Source: Candidatus Zixiibacteriota bacterium
GTDB lineage: Bacteria; Zixibacteria; MSB-5A5; GN15; FEB-12
Assembly (NCBI GenBank): GCA_017999435.1
Contig: JAGNLV010000004.1
Span: forward strand, 372,001-436,000
Length of the DNA stretch: 64,000 nucleotides
Direction of reading: 5' to 3'
A program made the translations under genes and the position numbers. The number at the start of each line of letters is the position of its first letter. Position 1 is the stretch's first letter. The notes under the pieces were generated by a model. That model saw nothing but the letters and a program-made list of their open reading frames with translations, was not told the DNA's origin and ran no database searches. This document shows positions 49,786 through 62,180 of the stretch, in pieces.

Positions 49786-49808
49786 TGAAGGAGCCATGAG
49801 GAGGCTTG

Positions 49809-51365
49809 ATGCGGTTTCTGCTTTGGCTATGCATCGCGGTGTTATCGTCGCCGTGTGCGGGGTTGGCCGCCGGCCCAGTCGTTATCGATACCCTAATCTC
49901 CGATACCGTCGCCAGTTGGTTCGGGATGAGCATTGTTCCTATCGGTGATCAGAACAATGACGGCTACGATGACTTTCTCACATTCGAGTTGCCGAGGAAG
50001 CTCTATCTGTGCCTCGGCGGCCCCGTAGAAACAGGGATCACGATCACACGCATTGACACGGCTGGATCCCCGTTAATCGGAAACCTGGGTGACATCAATG
50101 GCGACCATATCACCGATTTTGGGTGCCCCATCCGACTTTCCAGTATAGACAGTTATCGTCTGGGTGTTTGGTACGGCGGCTCGCCGCTAGATGACGGTCC
50201 TGATCTTGTATTTGGGGACTCTACGTATTTTCCAGGGGTTTCGGCCCCGGTGTTAGGAAACGACATCAATGGGAATGGTACGCTTGAGTTGATCAGCAGC
50301 CACTCCGACAATTGGGACTACCCGTTGCTGATGTTTTTCGAATTGGGAGGTCACGCTGATTCGATGCCCGATCTCTTGTTGAGGGCGCCAGGTACTAACA
50401 TGGCCATGGCCGATGGCGTCATCACGGGTGATTTTAACGGTGACAGCTTCGACGATCTAGTTACGAACATGCGAAGTATACTCAACGACTCCGTTAAGGG
50501 GGAGGTGCTGCTGTACTGGGGGGGACCGGGCTTCGACACTATCCCTGATGCTCGGATCACACGGCGAGGCGAGTACAGCTGGCTGTACGACACATTCGGC
50601 ACCCGTTTGGAGTCACTGACGGATGTCAACGGGGACGGCTGGGATGACTTCTTCATTCACTACAGGGGCGGCTCCGGTGATTCGCTCTCGTGGATTCACT
50701 TCGGCGGCCCCGCCTTCGACACGGTTCCGGATGTGATTCTCACCACTAGAAATCAAAAAGCCCGCCTTGCTGGTGATGTCAACCACGACGGTTACGCTGA
50801 CCTTATCACAGGGTACGCTACGTCTTTCTCCGGCCTCGGCTACGCCGACATCTACCTCGGTGGCCCTGACTTCGACAGCATCCCTGATGTCGTCATTGAC
50901 CACTCCATGTTTTCCGGCTACTATAACTATTTTGGACATGAGGTGGCCGGTATCGGCGACGTCAACGGCGACGGGATTGATGATTTTGCTGTAGCTTCAT
51001 CCCGCGGCAGCGGCTATCCCTGGGTCATCTTCATCTTTGCCGGCTGGGATGATGCCGTCAGCGTCGATGACACCCTCGACCCCGAACCCGCCCTCCCCAC
51101 CAACTTCACCTTAGACCAAAACTACCCCAACCCCTTCAACCCGATCACTACCATATCCTTTTCGCTGCCCCGCGCCGAGACTGTCACCTTGCGCATCCTT
51201 AACGCCCTTGGCCAGACGGTGGCGGTGCTGATAAACGAGCAGCGGCTGGGGCCGGGGGAACATGCGGTCGTGTGGGAGGCGGAGGGGTATGCCAGCGGGG
51301 TGTACCTGTACGAACTGGAGTACTCCAGCGGCCAGCAGAGCCGGAAGATGGTGCTGATTAAATGA
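49809..51365 (+). CDS. Secreted FG-GAP/calcium-loop protein with C-terminal sorting domain, copy 1
   Basis: A 518-residue exported protein. A signal peptide (MRFLLWLCIAVLSSPCAGLA) precedes seven FG-GAP-like repeats with DxNxDG calcium loops (DQNNDGYDD, DINGDHITD, DINGNGTLE, DFNGDSFDD, DVNGDGWDD, DVNHDGYAD, DVNGDGIDD), predicted to fold as a beta-propeller. The last about 85 residues are a PNPFNP-type domain like the type-A sorting domain of type IX secretion, ending GVYLYELEYSSGQQSRKM. AGGAGG lies before ATG 49809. Base composition is visibly less G+C-rich than in flanking genes. The stop overlaps an ATG of the region before copy 2. Likely a surface protein; a type IX system itself is not in the window. 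Confidence 0.85.
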   Translation: MRFLLWLCIAVLSSPCAGLAAGPVVIDTLISDTVASWFGMSIVPIGDQNNDGYDDFLTFELPRKLYLCLGGPVETGITITRIDTAGSPLIGNLGDINGDHITDFGCPIRLSSIDSYRLGVWYGGSPLDDGPDLVFGDSTYFPGVSAPVLGNDINGNGTLELISSHSDNWDYPLLMFFELGGHADSMPDLLLRAPGTNMAMADGVITGDFNGDSFDDLVTNMRSILNDSVKGEVLLYWGGPGFDTIPDARITRRGEYSWLYDTFGTRLESLTDVNGDGWDDFFIHYRGGSGDSLSWIHFGGPAFDTVPDVILTTRNQKARLAGDVNHDGYADLITGYATSFSGLGYADIYLGGPDFDSIPDVVIDHSMFSGYYNYFGHEVAGIGDVNGDGIDDFAVASSRGSGYPWVIFIFAGWDDAVSVDDTLDPEPALPTNFTLDQNYPNPFNPITTISFSLPRAETVTLRILNALGQTVAVLINEQRLGPGEHAVVWEAEGYASGVYLYELEYSSGQQSRKMVLIK

Positions 51366-51379
51366 AGAAGGGAGGCCTG

Positions 51380-52942
51380 ATGCGGTTTCTGCTTTGGCTA
51401 TGCATCGCGGTGTTATCGTCGCCGTGCGCGGGGTTGGCCGCCGGCCCAGTCGTTATCGATACCCTAATCTCTGATACCGTGGCGAGTTGGTTTGGCATGC
51501 GCATTGTACCGGTGGGAGATCAGAACGGAGACGGGTATGATGATTTTCTGACCTATGAGTTACCCAGAAAACTCTACCTCTGTTTGGGCGGACCCGCGGA
51601 GTTTGGCATCCAGTGTTCCAGGATTGACAATGAAACCACCAGCCTCTTTGGCAACTTATCGATGGTAAACGGCGACAGCATCCCAGACTTTGGAGGCATC
51701 CGCAACGCCCCAGGTGGCCGCCGACGCCTCGCGGTCTGGTATGGCGGAACTCCCCTTAGTGTCATTCCAGATTTGCTTTTAGGTGACGACACTGTGTATC
51801 CGGGGCAAGCTTTCCCCGTGTACGGTAACGACATCAACGGTAACGGTTCGCCTGAGTTAATCGCTGGCCATTACGATAACGCTCTCTTCCCCTCCCTGCT
51901 GTTTTTCGAACTTAATCAGGATTTAGACTCGACAGTAGATTTTCAACTATGGGCACCTGAACACCTCGATTATCCGGTATTCGGTCGCGCAATTCTAACG
52001 GGTGACTTCAATGGCGACGGGTGGGAGGACTTAGTCACGAACATGCTATTTAGTGCCCAGGCCGGCGTAAGTGATCAGGTGCTTCTATACTGGGGGGGGC
52101 CGGCCTTCGACACACTGCCAGACGCCAATATTGTCCGGAGTATGACGTACGATCCCGAGTACATTAGCTTTGGTCAGCGCCTCGAGCACTTGGGTGACCT
52201 TAACGGCGACGGGTGGGATGATTTTCTCATCAACTATGGGGAAGGCGGTTCCGAGGACTCATGCTCCTGGGTTCACTTTGGCGGCTCAGACTTTGATACC
52301 GTACCTGACATCACCATCTGCGATTGGGCATTAGAGGCCCGCCTGGCCGGTGACATCAACAATGACGGGTACGACGATCTCATCAAGGGGCGGTCAACCT
52401 CATTTCAGGCTATCGGTCAGGCCAATATCTACCTTGGTGGACCAAACGTCGACAGCATCCCCGATGTCGTCATTGACCACTCCATGTTTTCCGGCTACTA
52501 TAACTATTTTGGACATGAGGTGGCCGGGCTGGGCGATGTCAACGGGGATGGTATCGATGACTTTGCCGTGGCGTCGTCGCGAGGAGCCGGTTTCCCCTGG
52601 GTCATCTTCATCTTTGCCGGCTGGGACGATGCCGTCAGCGTCGATGACCCCCTCGACCCGGAACCCGCCCTCCCCACCAACTTCACCTTAGACCAAAACT
52701 ACCCCAATCCCTTCAATCCGAACACGACGATCCGCTTCTCTTTGCCTCATGCTGAGATGGTCAGCCTGCGCATCCTTAACGCCCTTGGCCAGACGGTGGC
52801 GGTGCTGGTGGATCAGCAGCGGCTCGGCGCCGGTGAGCACGAGGTGCTGTGGGACGCCACCGAGTATGCCAGCGGGGTGTACCTGTACGAACTGGAGTAC
52901 CCGGCCGGGAAGCAGAGCCGGAAGATGGTGGTGCTCAAATAA
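51380..52942 (+). CDS. Secreted FG-GAP/calcium-loop protein with C-terminal sorting domain, copy 2
   Basis: A 520-residue tandem paralogue of the preceding gene, 14 bp downstream. Its ATG 51380 (MRFLLWLCIAV) has GGGAGG upstream and gives the same signal peptide. The first about 97 bases differ from copy 1 at only two positions, then the middle diverges, while stretches near the 3' end are again identical (for example a run of about 60 bases ending GAGGTGGCCGG). Propeller repeats and PNPFNP domain are conserved. The two genes look like duplicated paralogues, one transcript, with mosaic sequence exchange. Function unknown; probably surface or adhesion. Confidence 0.85.
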   Translation: MRFLLWLCIAVLSSPCAGLAAGPVVIDTLISDTVASWFGMRIVPVGDQNGDGYDDFLTYELPRKLYLCLGGPAEFGIQCSRIDNETTSLFGNLSMVNGDSIPDFGGIRNAPGGRRRLAVWYGGTPLSVIPDLLLGDDTVYPGQAFPVYGNDINGNGSPELIAGHYDNALFPSLLFFELNQDLDSTVDFQLWAPEHLDYPVFGRAILTGDFNGDGWEDLVTNMLFSAQAGVSDQVLLYWGGPAFDTLPDANIVRSMTYDPEYISFGQRLEHLGDLNGDGWDDFLINYGEGGSEDSCSWVHFGGSDFDTVPDITICDWALEARLAGDINNDGYDDLIKGRSTSFQAIGQANIYLGGPNVDSIPDVVIDHSMFSGYYNYFGHEVAGLGDVNGDGIDDFAVASSRGAGFPWVIFIFAGWDDAVSVDDPLDPEPALPTNFTLDQNYPNPFNPNTTIRFSLPHAEMVSLRILNALGQTVAVLVDQQRLGAGEHEVLWDATEYASGVYLYELEYPAGKQSRKMVVLK

Positions 52943-58078: not shown

Positions 58079-58119
58079 CCCGGTACAATCGGAAAACCGT
58101 GCTCCGGAGATGTGGGTGT

Positions 58120-60483
58120 ATGCGCCGAGGTGAGCAAGTTGTGATGGTTCTTCTGTGTGCGATCGCGGCGGTTCTGTCTGTGGCCGCGCCGGCCGGGTCG
58201 GTCACTGTCCGCCTGGGCTATTTCGAGGCGGGGGAACACCCCCTGCACTATGTGCTTCGCGACGAATTCATCCGCCAGCTGGAGAACATGGCCCCGGCCG
58301 ACACGCAGTTCGTATTCATTCCGAACGGCTACCGGTCGGCCTCGTGGATACGGGACAGCAGCCGGGTGATGGCGGCGAGCCTGGCGCGCCAGGGGGGGAT
58401 TGACATACTGGTGGCGATCGGACCGTGGGTGGTCGAGGACCTTCTCGCGGCCGGCTACGCGGGGCCGATTCTCGGGGTGCGACAGATCGATCCGTTCGGC
58501 GCCGGGCTGATCGACTCCGGCGGGCGGCCCGCGGCGCCCAACCTGACGGTGCAGGACATGCCGGGGAAGATCGAGGACGATATCGGCGTGCTGCGGGCGA
58601 TCGCGCCGGTGAAGAAGCTCGGAGTGCTGTGGTTCGACACGGGGCCGGAGCGGGATTCGATCATCGCGCGGGCGGAGCGGCTGGGCGCACAGGCCGGGTT
58701 CGAAACGGTGACGGCGGACGGCTACGACGTGAACGGTACCTATGCCTTCTTCAAGGCGTTTTCCGCGCTGCCGCCGGATATCGACGGTCTGTATATCGGG
58801 CCGACCTGGGGAATGACCGTCACCGAGGCCGCCGATTTCTTCCGCATGGTGATGGGCCGGAAAGTCCCCCTCATGACGTGGGAGGGGCGGTACCAGGTCA
58901 CGCGGGGGGCGTTCGCGACCAACTACGCCTATGGGCTGGTTTCGGAGGCGCATTTCCAGGCGCTCAAGGCGCTGCGGATCGCGCGCGGCGAGCGGCCGGC
59001 CGATCTCCCGGTCCGGTTCCGGGGCGGGTCGGCGCTGGCGCTCAGCGGTCCGGCGATCCGGCGGCTCGAACTGCAGGTGCCGGCCGAGGCGCTGCTGTCG
59101 GGCGAACTGATCGACGACGAACCGCCGCCGGCGACCGAATGGTACACGCTGGCCGATGCGGTGGGGCGGGCCCTGCGGAGCAATCCGTCCTACCTGGCGA
59201 CCTACGATGCGATCGAGGCGGCGGTGCAGGGCGCCCGGGCGGCCGGGGCCGGGTACCTTCCGCAGGTGTCAGTCGAGGGGCAGGCCGGGGTGGTCGATCA
59301 CCACACCACCCACAACACGGTCGAACCGCTGGGGCGGCAACAGGCGCGCGCTTCGCTGGTACTCGACCAGACGATCTTCTCGCCGGCGCTGCTGAAGGCG
59401 CGGAAAGCGGCGGGGCAGCAGGAACGGGTGGCCGCCGCGGCCCAGCGCCAGGCGCGCCTCGATCTGGAACTCGCGGTCGAAACCGCCTGCCTCGGATACT
59501 TGCAGGCGCTCGACGAGCAGCGGGTGGAGCGGCGCTACCGGGAGCTGGTCGAGCGGACGCTCGAGTATGCGGCGGCCGAGTTCTACCTTCGGGATGAACG
59601 CGAGCCCGACCTGTCGCGCTGGCAGGACGAGCGCAACGACGCCATCACGCGGGTGCTGGAGGCGGAGAACAACGTGTACACCGGCCGCGTGCTATTGAAT
59701 CTGCTGTTCAACCTTCCGCCGGAGCGGCCGGTGGCGCTGGACACGAACCTGGTGACGGCCCGGCAGGTGGTGGGCGCCGATTACGAGGCCCTCTCCCCGC
59801 TGGCGGTTCAGCCGGACCGGCGGCAGCAGTTCGAATCATACCTCGTCGATCAGGCGCGGGCGGCCAGCCCGACGCTGGCCGGCGAGGATGCCCGGCTGGA
59901 GGTGCAGCGGACGCGGGTGGACGAGGCGACGGCCAGGCGATGGCCGACGCTTGATCTGCGGGCGGCGTTCAATATCGCCGACGAGATCGACGACGATCGG
60001 GGGATCATCGACGAGCGCACCGACACCTGGTCGGTGTTCGGGCGGATGAAACTGCCGCTGTATCTCGGCGGGGCGGTGGGGAAGGAACGGGCGCGGCTCA
60101 AAGCGAGCCTGAGCGAGATGGAGTATCGGCGGGATGCGCGGCTGCTGGAGGTCATGGCGAACATCCGGCGCGAGACCGGACGGTTGATCACGAATATTGC
60201 CGCGCTCACCCGCCACGGGCGGTCGGTTGAACTGGCGCTCCACGCCATGGGGCTGATCATCAACGACTACGAGGCGGGAAAACGGGATATGACGGCGTTG
60301 CTGGAGGCCTACCGCCACGCCCGCACCGCCGAGCTGACCGCTATCGGGACGCGCTATGAGTATCTGCGGGCGATGGCGCGGCTCGTCCACACCGTGGGCT
60401 GGTCCCCCTCGGAGAACCTGCGGGCTTTTCCCGAGGAGTTCCGGGAGCGGGCGCGGGAGGGACTGGCGCCGGCGGGGCAGTAG
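58120..60483 (+). CDS. Fusion of an ABC-type substrate-binding domain and a TolC-like outer-membrane protein
   Basis: A 787-residue exported protein. After a signal peptide (about 8-28) residues 30-315 match the ABC_sub_bind family (PF04392): FEAGEHPLHYVLRDEF, DILVAIGPWVVEDLLAAGY, IDGLYIGPTWGM and the closing LELQVPAEALLSGELI. Residues 325-780 read as a TolC-type outer-membrane factor: WYTLADAVGRALRSNPSYLA at its start, SVEGQAGVV, two long coiled-coil repeats with RARLKASLSEMEYRRDARLLEV, and NDYEAGKRDMTALLEAYR near the end. Substrate capture and trans-envelope efflux would thus be joined in one chain. ATG 58120 is used; MLRRCGC upstream is also open. No transporter pump gene is adjacent in the window. 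Confidence 0.85.
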   Translation: MRRGEQVVMVLLCAIAAVLSVAAPAGSVTVRLGYFEAGEHPLHYVLRDEFIRQLENMAPADTQFVFIPNGYRSASWIRDSSRVMAASLARQGGIDILVAIGPWVVEDLLAAGYAGPILGVRQIDPFGAGLIDSGGRPAAPNLTVQDMPGKIEDDIGVLRAIAPVKKLGVLWFDTGPERDSIIARAERLGAQAGFETVTADGYDVNGTYAFFKAFSALPPDIDGLYIGPTWGMTVTEAADFFRMVMGRKVPLMTWEGRYQVTRGAFATNYAYGLVSEAHFQALKALRIARGERPADLPVRFRGGSALALSGPAIRRLELQVPAEALLSGELIDDEPPPATEWYTLADAVGRALRSNPSYLATYDAIEAAVQGARAAGAGYLPQVSVEGQAGVVDHHTTHNTVEPLGRQQARASLVLDQTIFSPALLKARKAAGQQERVAAAAQRQARLDLELAVETACLGYLQALDEQRVERRYRELVERTLEYAAAEFYLRDEREPDLSRWQDERNDAITRVLEAENNVYTGRVLLNLLFNLPPERPVALDTNLVTARQVVGADYEALSPLAVQPDRRQQFESYLVDQARAASPTLAGEDARLEVQRTRVDEATARRWPTLDLRAAFNIADEIDDDRGIIDERTDTWSVFGRMKLPLYLGGAVGKERARLKASLSEMEYRRDARLLEVMANIRRETGRLITNIAALTRHGRSVELALHAMGLIINDYEAGKRDMTALLEAYRHARTAELTAIGTRYEYLRAMARLVHTVGWSPSENLRAFPEEFRERAREGLAPAGQ

Positions 60484-60689: not shown

Positions 60690-61739
60690 TCACGGAGCCT
60701 GCACGTGGCACTGACCGCAGAGGATCTTGTAGTTGGTGCCGTCACCGTTCTCGCCCGGGTTGGCTTCGCCGGTGGCCCAGATGAGACCGAAGGCGCGGGT
60801 GTTGCCGTGCGCCTTGTGGCAGCTCATGCAGCTCGGGGTGAGCGTAGTCGGAGCGCCGGTCCAGGCCGCGCCCCAGGTGCCCCAGTTGCCGGTCGCCGAC
60901 ATGACCTGCACGCGGTAGGCCTGGCCGGTGAACTTGCTGAGGCTGGAGTGCCCGCCGGTGAGAGCGCCGATGTTGGCATCCGCGGTGGGGTGGCGCAGCC
61001 ACTCGGTCTGCGTCGGAGCGGCCGTGTTGCGCATGTTGGCGCTGCTCGACGAACCGTGGAAGTCGGTGTGGCACTGCTGGCAGAACGCGCCGTAGCCGGA
61101 CGCGGTCACGTTCGGCTCGTTGAACTGAACATTCTGCATATCATAGTGATTGCCGCCGTAGGTCGCGGACAGCTCGAAGATGTCCTTCGTCAGATCGTTG
61201 GTCCCGATGGCGTAGGTCATGTACGGGGTCGCCGGAGTGCCGTTGATGAAGATGTTGGCGTTCCGGTAGATGCTCTGACCGCCGGAGGTGCGACCGTGCT
61301 GCGTGTGGCAGTCGATGCAATTCAGACCGTGGTCATTGCTGAACGTGCCGCCCGGAGCCACGTCGGTCGAGCCGAGCGTGTGGCCGGCAGCGTCGTAGTA
61401 GGGAGCGACGTTGTCGCGGTTCAGGGCGCCCGCCTGGCGACCGTTGGCCGTCACGTTGCCGCCGTTCTCCGCCAGGACATCCGGAGCAAACGTCTGGTTG
61501 TCATGGCACGAGAGGCAGAGCGTGTTGACCTCGTTGCGCAGCAGGAAATGATAAGGACCATCGGCCCCAAGCCCGACCGTGATGCCGGAACCGTCGGCAT
61601 TGTAGCCGTGGGTCTGGCTGTAGTGCATCACGTGGCACTCGGCGCAGTTGAGGGTCGTGCCGGTGTGGTAGTCGCCGGCCAGCGCACCGCCGGCCAGAAG
61701 CGCCACCGCGGCAACTCCGAGCAGGAAGACAGTCTTCAT
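60690..61739 (-). CDS. Hexaheme c-type cytochrome, OmcS-like (extracellular electron transfer candidate)
   Basis: A 349-residue exported cytochrome: a signal peptide (1-21) and exactly six CxxCH motifs at 32-36, 75-79, 141-145, 220-224, 304-308 and 341-345. Order and surroundings resemble Geobacter OmcS as I recall it: a histidine before heme 1 (YHTG), CAECHVMH at heme 1, GHTLGSTDVAPGGT before heme 3, CHTDFHG then RHP after heme 4, CMSCHKAH at heme 5, and the last heme 4 residues from the end. Twelve further histidines (for example H25, H39, H64, H120, H228, H250, H311) could supply distal ligands. OmcS itself is about 430 residues. ATG 61739 has GGAGGAAAG upstream. A CRP/FNR-type site lies upstream and DsbD is encoded in the same window. 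Confidence 0.88.
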   Translation of the reverse strand: MKTVFLLGVAAVALLAGGALAGDYHTGTTLNCAECHVMHYSQTHGYNADGSGITVGLGADGPYHFLLRNEVNTLCLSCHDNQTFAPDVLAENGGNVTANGRQAGALNRDNVAPYYDAAGHTLGSTDVAPGGTFSNDHGLNCIDCHTQHGRTSGGQSIYRNANIFINGTPATPYMTYAIGTNDLTKDIFELSATYGGNHYDMQNVQFNEPNVTASGYGAFCQQCHTDFHGSSSSANMRNTAAPTQTEWLRHPTADANIGALTGGHSSLSKFTGQAYRVQVMSATGNWGTWGAAWTGAPTTLTPSCMSCHKAHGNTRAFGLIWATGEANPGENGDGTNYKILCGQCHVQAP

Positions 61740-62180
61740 GCTGCTTTCCTCCAGTTTCGTGAAAGCATACTTCCACGGGGTGGAATGGTGATAGTATGGG
61801 TGCATTGTGAGTGATTGGGCGAATCCGAAGTTTGGAGACCTGCGTGATCTATATTTGTGATTCCTGTCACAAGCGATGGTCGAATCATTCCGGTGGTTGG
61901 CCATTCTCGTTTCCAAGTTTCTCGATCAGGGAACTTCTCAGTGCGTAGACCTAAGTTGGTTCATCCGGTGATCTGCGTTCATAACTGGGCAAAGGATATC
62001 AATAAAGCTCCTATTTGTCAAGAACTAAATGACACTTAAATGACACAAAATATCATCATTGCTCCGAAATGAGACGTTAAGCCATTCCCTAACATCTACT
62101 TGAAAGTACAGATTCGTCCCGGCATATGTGTACATATTGGCAGGGATTAGATCCGGAGAATCCCGATATTCTGGGTTATC
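61740..62180. other. AT-richer intergenic region upstream of the cytochrome gene
   Basis: A 441-bp gap without a gene. It contains the CRP/FNR-type palindrome at 61855-61872, a CATACTAT -10-like box on the minus strand at 61798-61791 with no good -35, and a separate palindrome ATATGT-gt-ACATAT at 62124-62137. The lack of a -35 would fit a promoter that needs an activator. Terminator of the NHL gene: a weak GGGATT / AATCCC hairpin only. Confidence 0.6.
61855..61872. promoter_or_regulatory. CRP/FNR-family binding site
   Basis: TTGTGA-TTCCTG-TCACAA, a perfect palindrome matching the CRP consensus TGTGA-N6-TCACA. Its centre is about 124 bp before the cytochrome ATG, and about 78 bp before the start predicted from the CATACT -10 box, a position seen for class I activation. 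The only gene it could control on either strand is the cytochrome gene. Confidence 0.6.

Follow-up and report, generated by a model that had tools for sequence, protein, structure and literature searches.

A TolC-type outer-membrane factor with an N-terminal PF04392-type binding domain: architecture, spread and a possible role in ligand sensing

TolC-type outer-membrane factors (OMFs) are regarded as passive exits that are opened by adaptors and pumps, and the adaptors dock at the tips of the OMF hairpins. The closest solved relatives of the second protein type considered here, the PF04392 proteins CD0873 (6hni), VC_1101 (3lkv) and SP1069 (3lft), hold tyrosine, phenylalanine and tryptophan, respectively (PMC6816091). 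In E. coli, an extra globular protein, YbjP, sits at the TolC collar in a 3:3 complex, near the equatorial domain; the accessible parts of the two reports present it as a separate lipoprotein and mention no binding-protein fold (PMC13082787, PMC13095208). Here, we describe a gene at positions 58120–60483 of a 64-kb window (the window being the whole stretch of DNA that was analysed) in which a PF04392-type binding domain and a full TolC-type OMF are joined in a single protein. The fusion is undescribed in the open-access literature searched, a coverage outside which most subscription journals lie, and the one paper that names both Pfam numbers assigns them, in the part available, to separate proteins. 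Relative to this literature the combination appears to be new, while each half, judged from profiles and predicted models, appears to be of a known type.

The window gene occupies one open frame on the plus strand (58099–60483), which encodes 794 residues from a GTG at 58099 or 787 residues from an ATG at 58120. The fusion family has two clades, of which clade 1 is the window protein's own kind. The features of the gene are given below with their conservation in 46 aligned clade-1 proteins, 69 clade-2 proteins and 22 stand-alone OMFs; the clade-2 counts for the hairpin tips are inflated, because the members were partly selected through these very motifs.

58120–60483, plus strand: fusion gene for a signal peptide, a PF04392-type binding domain and a TolC-type OMF (787 residues; possible GTG start at 58099, 21 bases upstream), assigned from the frame, Pfam, AlphaFold and Foldseek.
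58120–58197, plus strand: signal-peptide-like N-terminus without a lipobox, read from the sequence.
58198–59133, plus strand: class-I periplasmic binding domain of the PF04392 type, assigned from Pfam, profile comparison and Foldseek.
58420–58440, plus strand: GPWVVED motif, where 3lkv has ATPTAQA; G, P and W are invariant in 46 of 46 clade-1 rows.
58540–58551, plus strand: NLTV motif, where 3lkv has NVTG; N and L are invariant in clade 1 (46 rows).
59149–60399, plus strand: OMF with two OEP repeats, four predicted strands per protomer and two long helical hairpins, assigned from Pfam, the AlphaFold model and Foldseek.
59617–59622, plus strand: Arg-Trp at the first periplasmic hairpin tip; RW in 69/69 clade-2, 24/46 clade-1 and 3/22 stand-alone OMFs.
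60268–60279, plus strand: Tyr-x-x-Gly at the second periplasmic hairpin tip; Y/F..G in 69/69 clade-2, 35/46 clade-1 and 20/22 stand-alone OMFs.

Both halves of the protein were recognised by Pfam and by comparison of the predicted structure with solved folds. In the OMF half, OEP (PF02321) scored 99.8 bits against a cut-off of 22 (E 2.1e-28) in two stretches, the best at residues 351–536. The ABC_sub_bind family (PF04392) matched residues 98–331 in the 794-residue numbering at the level of its curated cut-off of 25.9 bits, falling below it in the protein scan (24.5 bits) and above it in the genome search (27.1 bits). An AlphaFold model built from the window protein and 63 relatives had a mean predicted local distance difference test score (pLDDT) of 83.6. 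In Foldseek, its OMF part matched TolC (1ek9) with a template modelling (TM) score by target of 0.83, and a separate part matched 3lft, 3lkv and 6hni with TM scores by target of 0.81–0.82. The model of a clade-2 relative (pLDDT 90.6) matched the same two kinds of fold. Because both models match solved folds in each half, we regard both domains as real, and the preliminary description of this gene, a single 787-residue frame with a PF04392-like domain followed by a full OMF, is borne out by Pfam and by AlphaFold/Foldseek alike.

Compared with the TolC family (PF02321; TIGR01844, TIGR01845), the window protein has, in its predicted model, the four barrel strands per protomer and the long periplasmic hairpins of the fold, together with the two OEP repeats, and its best solved matches are TolC-type ducts. 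Unlike the described members, the fusion carries about 310 extra N-terminal residues, which make up the binding domain, and it scores below the NCBIfam cut-offs.

The binding domain shares the two-lobed class-I fold of CD0873, VC_1101 and SP1069, and its profile matches the solved PF04392 relatives with E values of 7e-21 to 3e-16. Unlike these proteins, it is joined to an OMF, and in its loops the motifs of the solved binders of aromatic amino acids are replaced, a GPWVVED-type motif standing for ATPTAQ and an NLTV-type motif for the NVTG of 3lkv. Nor was an import permease noted near the fusion: no import permease or ATPase genes were found among the scanned neighbours of the window gene, while the neighbours of its relatives were clustered and only sampled by Pfam. 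By analogy with the family, the two loops would contact the ligand in the solved relatives, and in the fusion they are the most constrained part of the binding domain. From its sequence, the domain is unlikely to be a typical receptor for amino acids. With these cleft motifs replaced, ligand binding by the domain is putative.

What do PF04392 domains do elsewhere in this phylum, which is probably Zixibacteria? Matches to PF04392, fused or stand-alone, occurred in 103 of 129 genomes, and the 30 loci that scored best (L222–L251), all of them stand-alone, each had a histidine-kinase match alongside. These results suggest that the stand-alone PF04392 proteins are sensor-type binding proteins rather than importers, and that the domain usually serves in ligand sensing in this phylum. 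We favour a ligand-sensing role for the fused domain as well, because its stand-alone counterparts lie beside kinases and because a receiver gene lies upstream of some fusions: a lone CheY-like receiver gene was present within two genes upstream, on the same strand, in 17 of 49 clade-1 loci (L035, L043, L044, L046, L047, L051, L053, L055, L057–L061, L070, L071, L073 and L081). In the window's own genome, at L215:4208-9324 (G000 C4, outside the window), the stand-alone PF04392 gene is followed by a kinase gene (HAMP, HisKA) and receiver genes.

The fusion is not the product of a frameshift. The window query matched 88 of the 132 genomes of the phylum. Clade-1 proteins were present in 51 of 54 genomes of the window's own family and in 12 of 15 and 3 of 4 genomes of two sister families (66 of 73 in total, as counted from the genome search, with one further genome ambiguous), and in none of the 7 genomes of a fourth family of the same order. 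Thus, within the searches made, clade 1 is confined to three families of one phylum and is near-universal there. Most clade-1 proteins are full-length single frames and a few are fragments at contig ends; among the 46 full-length proteins that align, the window's included, the other members are 25–44% identical to the window protein. One relative (L070, G058) is split within the OMF half, at about residue 429, and not between the domains. Single-sequence scans of genome and viral contigs returned no relative, and in a plasmid collection four records each matched the binding domain alone.

Some genomes of the phylum also carry a second, diverged fusion, followed by an adaptor gene and an AcrB-type resistance-nodulation-division (RND) gene. 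This is clade 2, for which a scan of one genome per species gave 155 relatives; the best 80 of these were analysed, and 66 of them had a named phylum, representing at least 15 phyla. The relatives were found through two OMF motifs, so this phylum spread is a lower bound, biased to proteins that keep the tip motifs. As in tripartite RND and ABC-2 exporters, the clade-2 fusions sit with membrane fusion protein (MFP) and RND genes or with HlyD-type and ABC-2 genes: RND, HlyD-type or ABC-2 pump genes were adjacent in 67 of the 70 assessable loci, the other 10 of the 80 ending too early to assess. An RND gene lay within 2.5 kb in 51 of the 80 loci; an adaptor also matched in each of these except L122, in which Pfam recognised the adaptor. 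An ABC-2 transporter with a HlyD-type adaptor was found in 10 of the 80. L153 and L164 had an ABC-2 transporter with the HlyD adaptor cut off at the contig end, and four further loci were partial, with an ABC-2 permease (L151), a HlyD gene (L107) or an adaptor at the contig edge (L117 and L142). The neighbour search found no pump genes in L130, L136 and L166. The pump families were confirmed by Pfam on example loci.

Clade 1 differs sharply in this respect. The RND, adaptor, HlyD and ABC-2 permease queries matched in 0 of 49 clade-1 loci, the window included, although 14 of the 49 matched the double-ATPase ABC-2 query alone, in stretches consistent with ATPase domains. The lack of an adjacent pump gene, noted in the preliminary description, extends to the entire window, in which no RND or adaptor gene was found. 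That description named a conserved two-domain architecture as support, and this is seen in both clades. The linked RND or HlyD-type pump genes that it named as well are present in the sister clade but not in the window's own.

The ABC-2-linked clade-2 fusions show two gene orders of the exporter, which comprises a double-ATPase protein of about 910 residues, a permease and HlyD: one in L146, L148, L150, L152, L154, L155, L157 and L158, the other in L115 and L145. Within our sampling, the two orders correspond to two places in the OMF tree. Because the ABC-2-linked members sit in two places of this tree, the type of pump was probably exchanged more than once.

Did the two clades inherit one and the same fusion? 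In a quick OMF tree (17 of 46 clade-1 and 27 of 69 clade-2 rows, with support from the Shimodaira–Hasegawa-like approximate likelihood ratio test (SH-aLRT) only), a branch supported at 99% separated the fused OMFs of both clades from 21 stand-alone OMFs of the phylum. The N-terminal domains agree, the two clades aligning in hhalign over 311 columns with an E value of 9.5e-41 and a score of 293, compared with a score of 119 for the clade-1 domain against the phylum's histidine-kinase-linked PF04392 proteins. These sequence comparisons support, rather than prove, a single origin of the family, because the sampling of stand-alone OMFs was narrow: of the 22 used, 8 came from the window's own genome and 14 were chosen for resemblance to the query, and 21 were long enough for the tree.

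The two clades also differ in which half is conserved. In clade 1, the mean identity was 0.399 in the N-terminal domain vs. 0.276 in the OMF, the former being higher in 1033 of 1035 pairs, and 40 of 302 N-terminal positions were conserved at 90% or more compared with 9 of 417 OMF positions. In clade 2, the order was reversed (0.395 vs. 0.449, with the N-terminal domain higher in 164 of 1953 pairs). Selection in clade 1 acts mainly on the binding domain. Unlike in the TolC family at large, the first hairpin tip is eroded in clade 1: its Gly was retained in 69 of 69 clade-2 OMFs (a count inflated in the same way), in 19 of 22 stand-alone OMFs and in 18 of 46 clade-1 OMFs, and it is lost in the window protein, which retains the second-tip motif. 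The alignment is uncertain within the eroded tip regions. Furthermore, in two genomes of one genus (L071:7084-8943, 619 residues; L073:7278-9128, 616 residues), the protein lacks both barrel-strand stretches (profile positions ~358–446 and ~600–696) and retains its binding domain with some of the helical stalk, while a third genome of the same genus has the full-length fusion.

Could some efflux ducts have their own built-in ligand sensor? We think that they may, and our preferred explanation, to which we give about an even chance, is that the family consists of OMFs with built-in ligand-sensing domains, born in tripartite exporters, and that the ligand-binding part became dominant in clade 1. 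Each TolC-type protomer would carry an N-terminal class-I periplasmic binding domain, and in the trimer three of these would lie at the periplasmic collar of the channel, near the start of helix H1. The family would have arisen once, as the exit duct of tripartite exporters of the RND or ABC-2 type. In the pump-linked members, the binding domain would most likely recognise a small periplasmic ligand, and its closure on this ligand would set the state of the duct or the adaptor, acting as a sensor or gate and not as an import receptor. The window's clade would then have separated from the pump genes, and the window protein would most likely respond to a ligand while anchored in the outer membrane, with a channel that either serves unlinked pumps as well or is partly vestigial; a ligand-responsive role is the most likely one because the binding domain is the main target of selection. 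The eroded first tip and the barrel loss in two relatives agree with this reading and weaken the link of the window protein to efflux. Of the two hypothetical uses suggested in the preliminary description, sensing of a ligand to gate efflux fits the kinase-linked PF04392 proteins and the missing amino-acid-binder motifs better than delivery of a captured ligand to the channel. A bolder version, in which closure of the three collar-mounted domains opens or loads the channel and in which the sensor took over in one lineage, its channel separated from the pump and, in two genomes, without its barrel, leaving an outer-membrane-anchored or even soluble receptor, is put forward tentatively, as something that might hold but probably does not. 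If a widespread family of OMFs has a ligand-binding domain of its own, control by ligands at the level of the duct becomes directly testable, and the pump-free clade, with its strong selection on the binding half, could reveal the role of the ligand apart from export.

Several observations weigh against our preferred explanation. The constraint on the N-terminal domain could reflect contact with another protein and not with a ligand, and the cleft of the fused domain no longer carries the motifs of its solved counterparts, which makes its binding of a ligand putative. The receiver gene is upstream of the fusion in only the 17 of 49 clade-1 loci and is absent at the window. The window genome contains three RND–adaptor pairs without a nearby OMF gene; the close relatives of these pumps, searched in 129 genomes each, are scattered and do not track clade 1, an argument against a dedicated pump partner encoded elsewhere.

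It is possible, though rather improbable, that the window protein signals as a receptor or sensor tethered to the outer membrane, perhaps through a two-component system, with its TolC half serving mainly as an anchor or stalk. The far stronger conservation of the N-terminal domain, the eroded first tip, the loss of both barrel hairpins in two genomes, the kinases beside the phylum's PF04392 proteins and the receiver genes upstream of some fusions would all suit such a protein. However, the OMF of the window copy is complete, with four predicted strands, the second-tip motif is kept in 35 of the 46 clade-1 members, and no kinase gene was noted beside the fusion, in clade-1 loci that were not searched systematically for kinases.

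We consider it unlikely that the binding domain is a ligand-free structural collar, bracing the duct against the outer membrane or the peptidoglycan as YbjP might. The domain is attached at the N-terminus of the OMF, the cleft motifs of the amino-acid binders are gone, and efflux does not depend on YbjP, which, in the available parts of its reports, is positioned between the membrane and the equatorial domain (PMC13082787, PMC13095208). Unlike the lipoprotein YbjP, the window protein has no lipobox, and a lipobox-like motif was present in 2 of 46 clade-1 rows. Against a collar stand the replacement motifs at the two cleft loops, whose residues rank among the least variable of the entire protein in clade 1, and the barrel-less variants, in which the domain persists with no barrel left to brace.

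It is quite unlikely that the window protein serves as an ordinary, general TolC, shared as an exit duct by those RND pumps of the genome that lack an OMF gene of their own. The three RND–adaptor pairs would be candidate users, and a general shared duct is possible on that account, but against it are the scattered orthologues of these pumps, which do not follow clade 1, the erosion of the first tip and the presence of other OMFs in the genome. A dedicated unlinked RND partner was also considered and is unlikely, because none of the three OMF-less pumps follows the clade-1 distribution. Uptake, in which ligands would enter through the channel and be captured by the binding domain for import, is very improbable: exporter genes accompany the sister clade, no import permease was seen beside the fusion, and the stand-alone PF04392 proteins of the phylum adjoin kinases. 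An assembly or frameshift join of two genes, or a stop between the domains, which the preliminary description had raised against itself, can be dismissed with near certainty, as no evidence for it was found, dozens of assemblies and both of the diverged clades show the same single frame, and the split in L070 lies within the OMF half.

Other genes recur beside the fusion in clade 1. Divergent ABC exporter genes encoding about 600 residues, often paired, were upstream of the fusion in 12 of 49 clade-1 loci (L043, L050–L054, L058, L060, L061, L069, L071 and L073). A conserved protein of about 370 residues (cluster c7), with no Pfam match in the two copies scanned, was encoded directly upstream in 10 clade-1 loci (L062, L065–L068, L072, L082 and L084–L086). 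In the window itself, a multihaem c-type cytochrome-like gene with paired CXXCH motifs (60690–61916, minus strand) adjoins the fusion gene on the opposite strand. Further away, two very similar genes lie in tandem (49806–51365 and 51362–52942), the second with FG-GAP repeats and a Por-type secretion tail.
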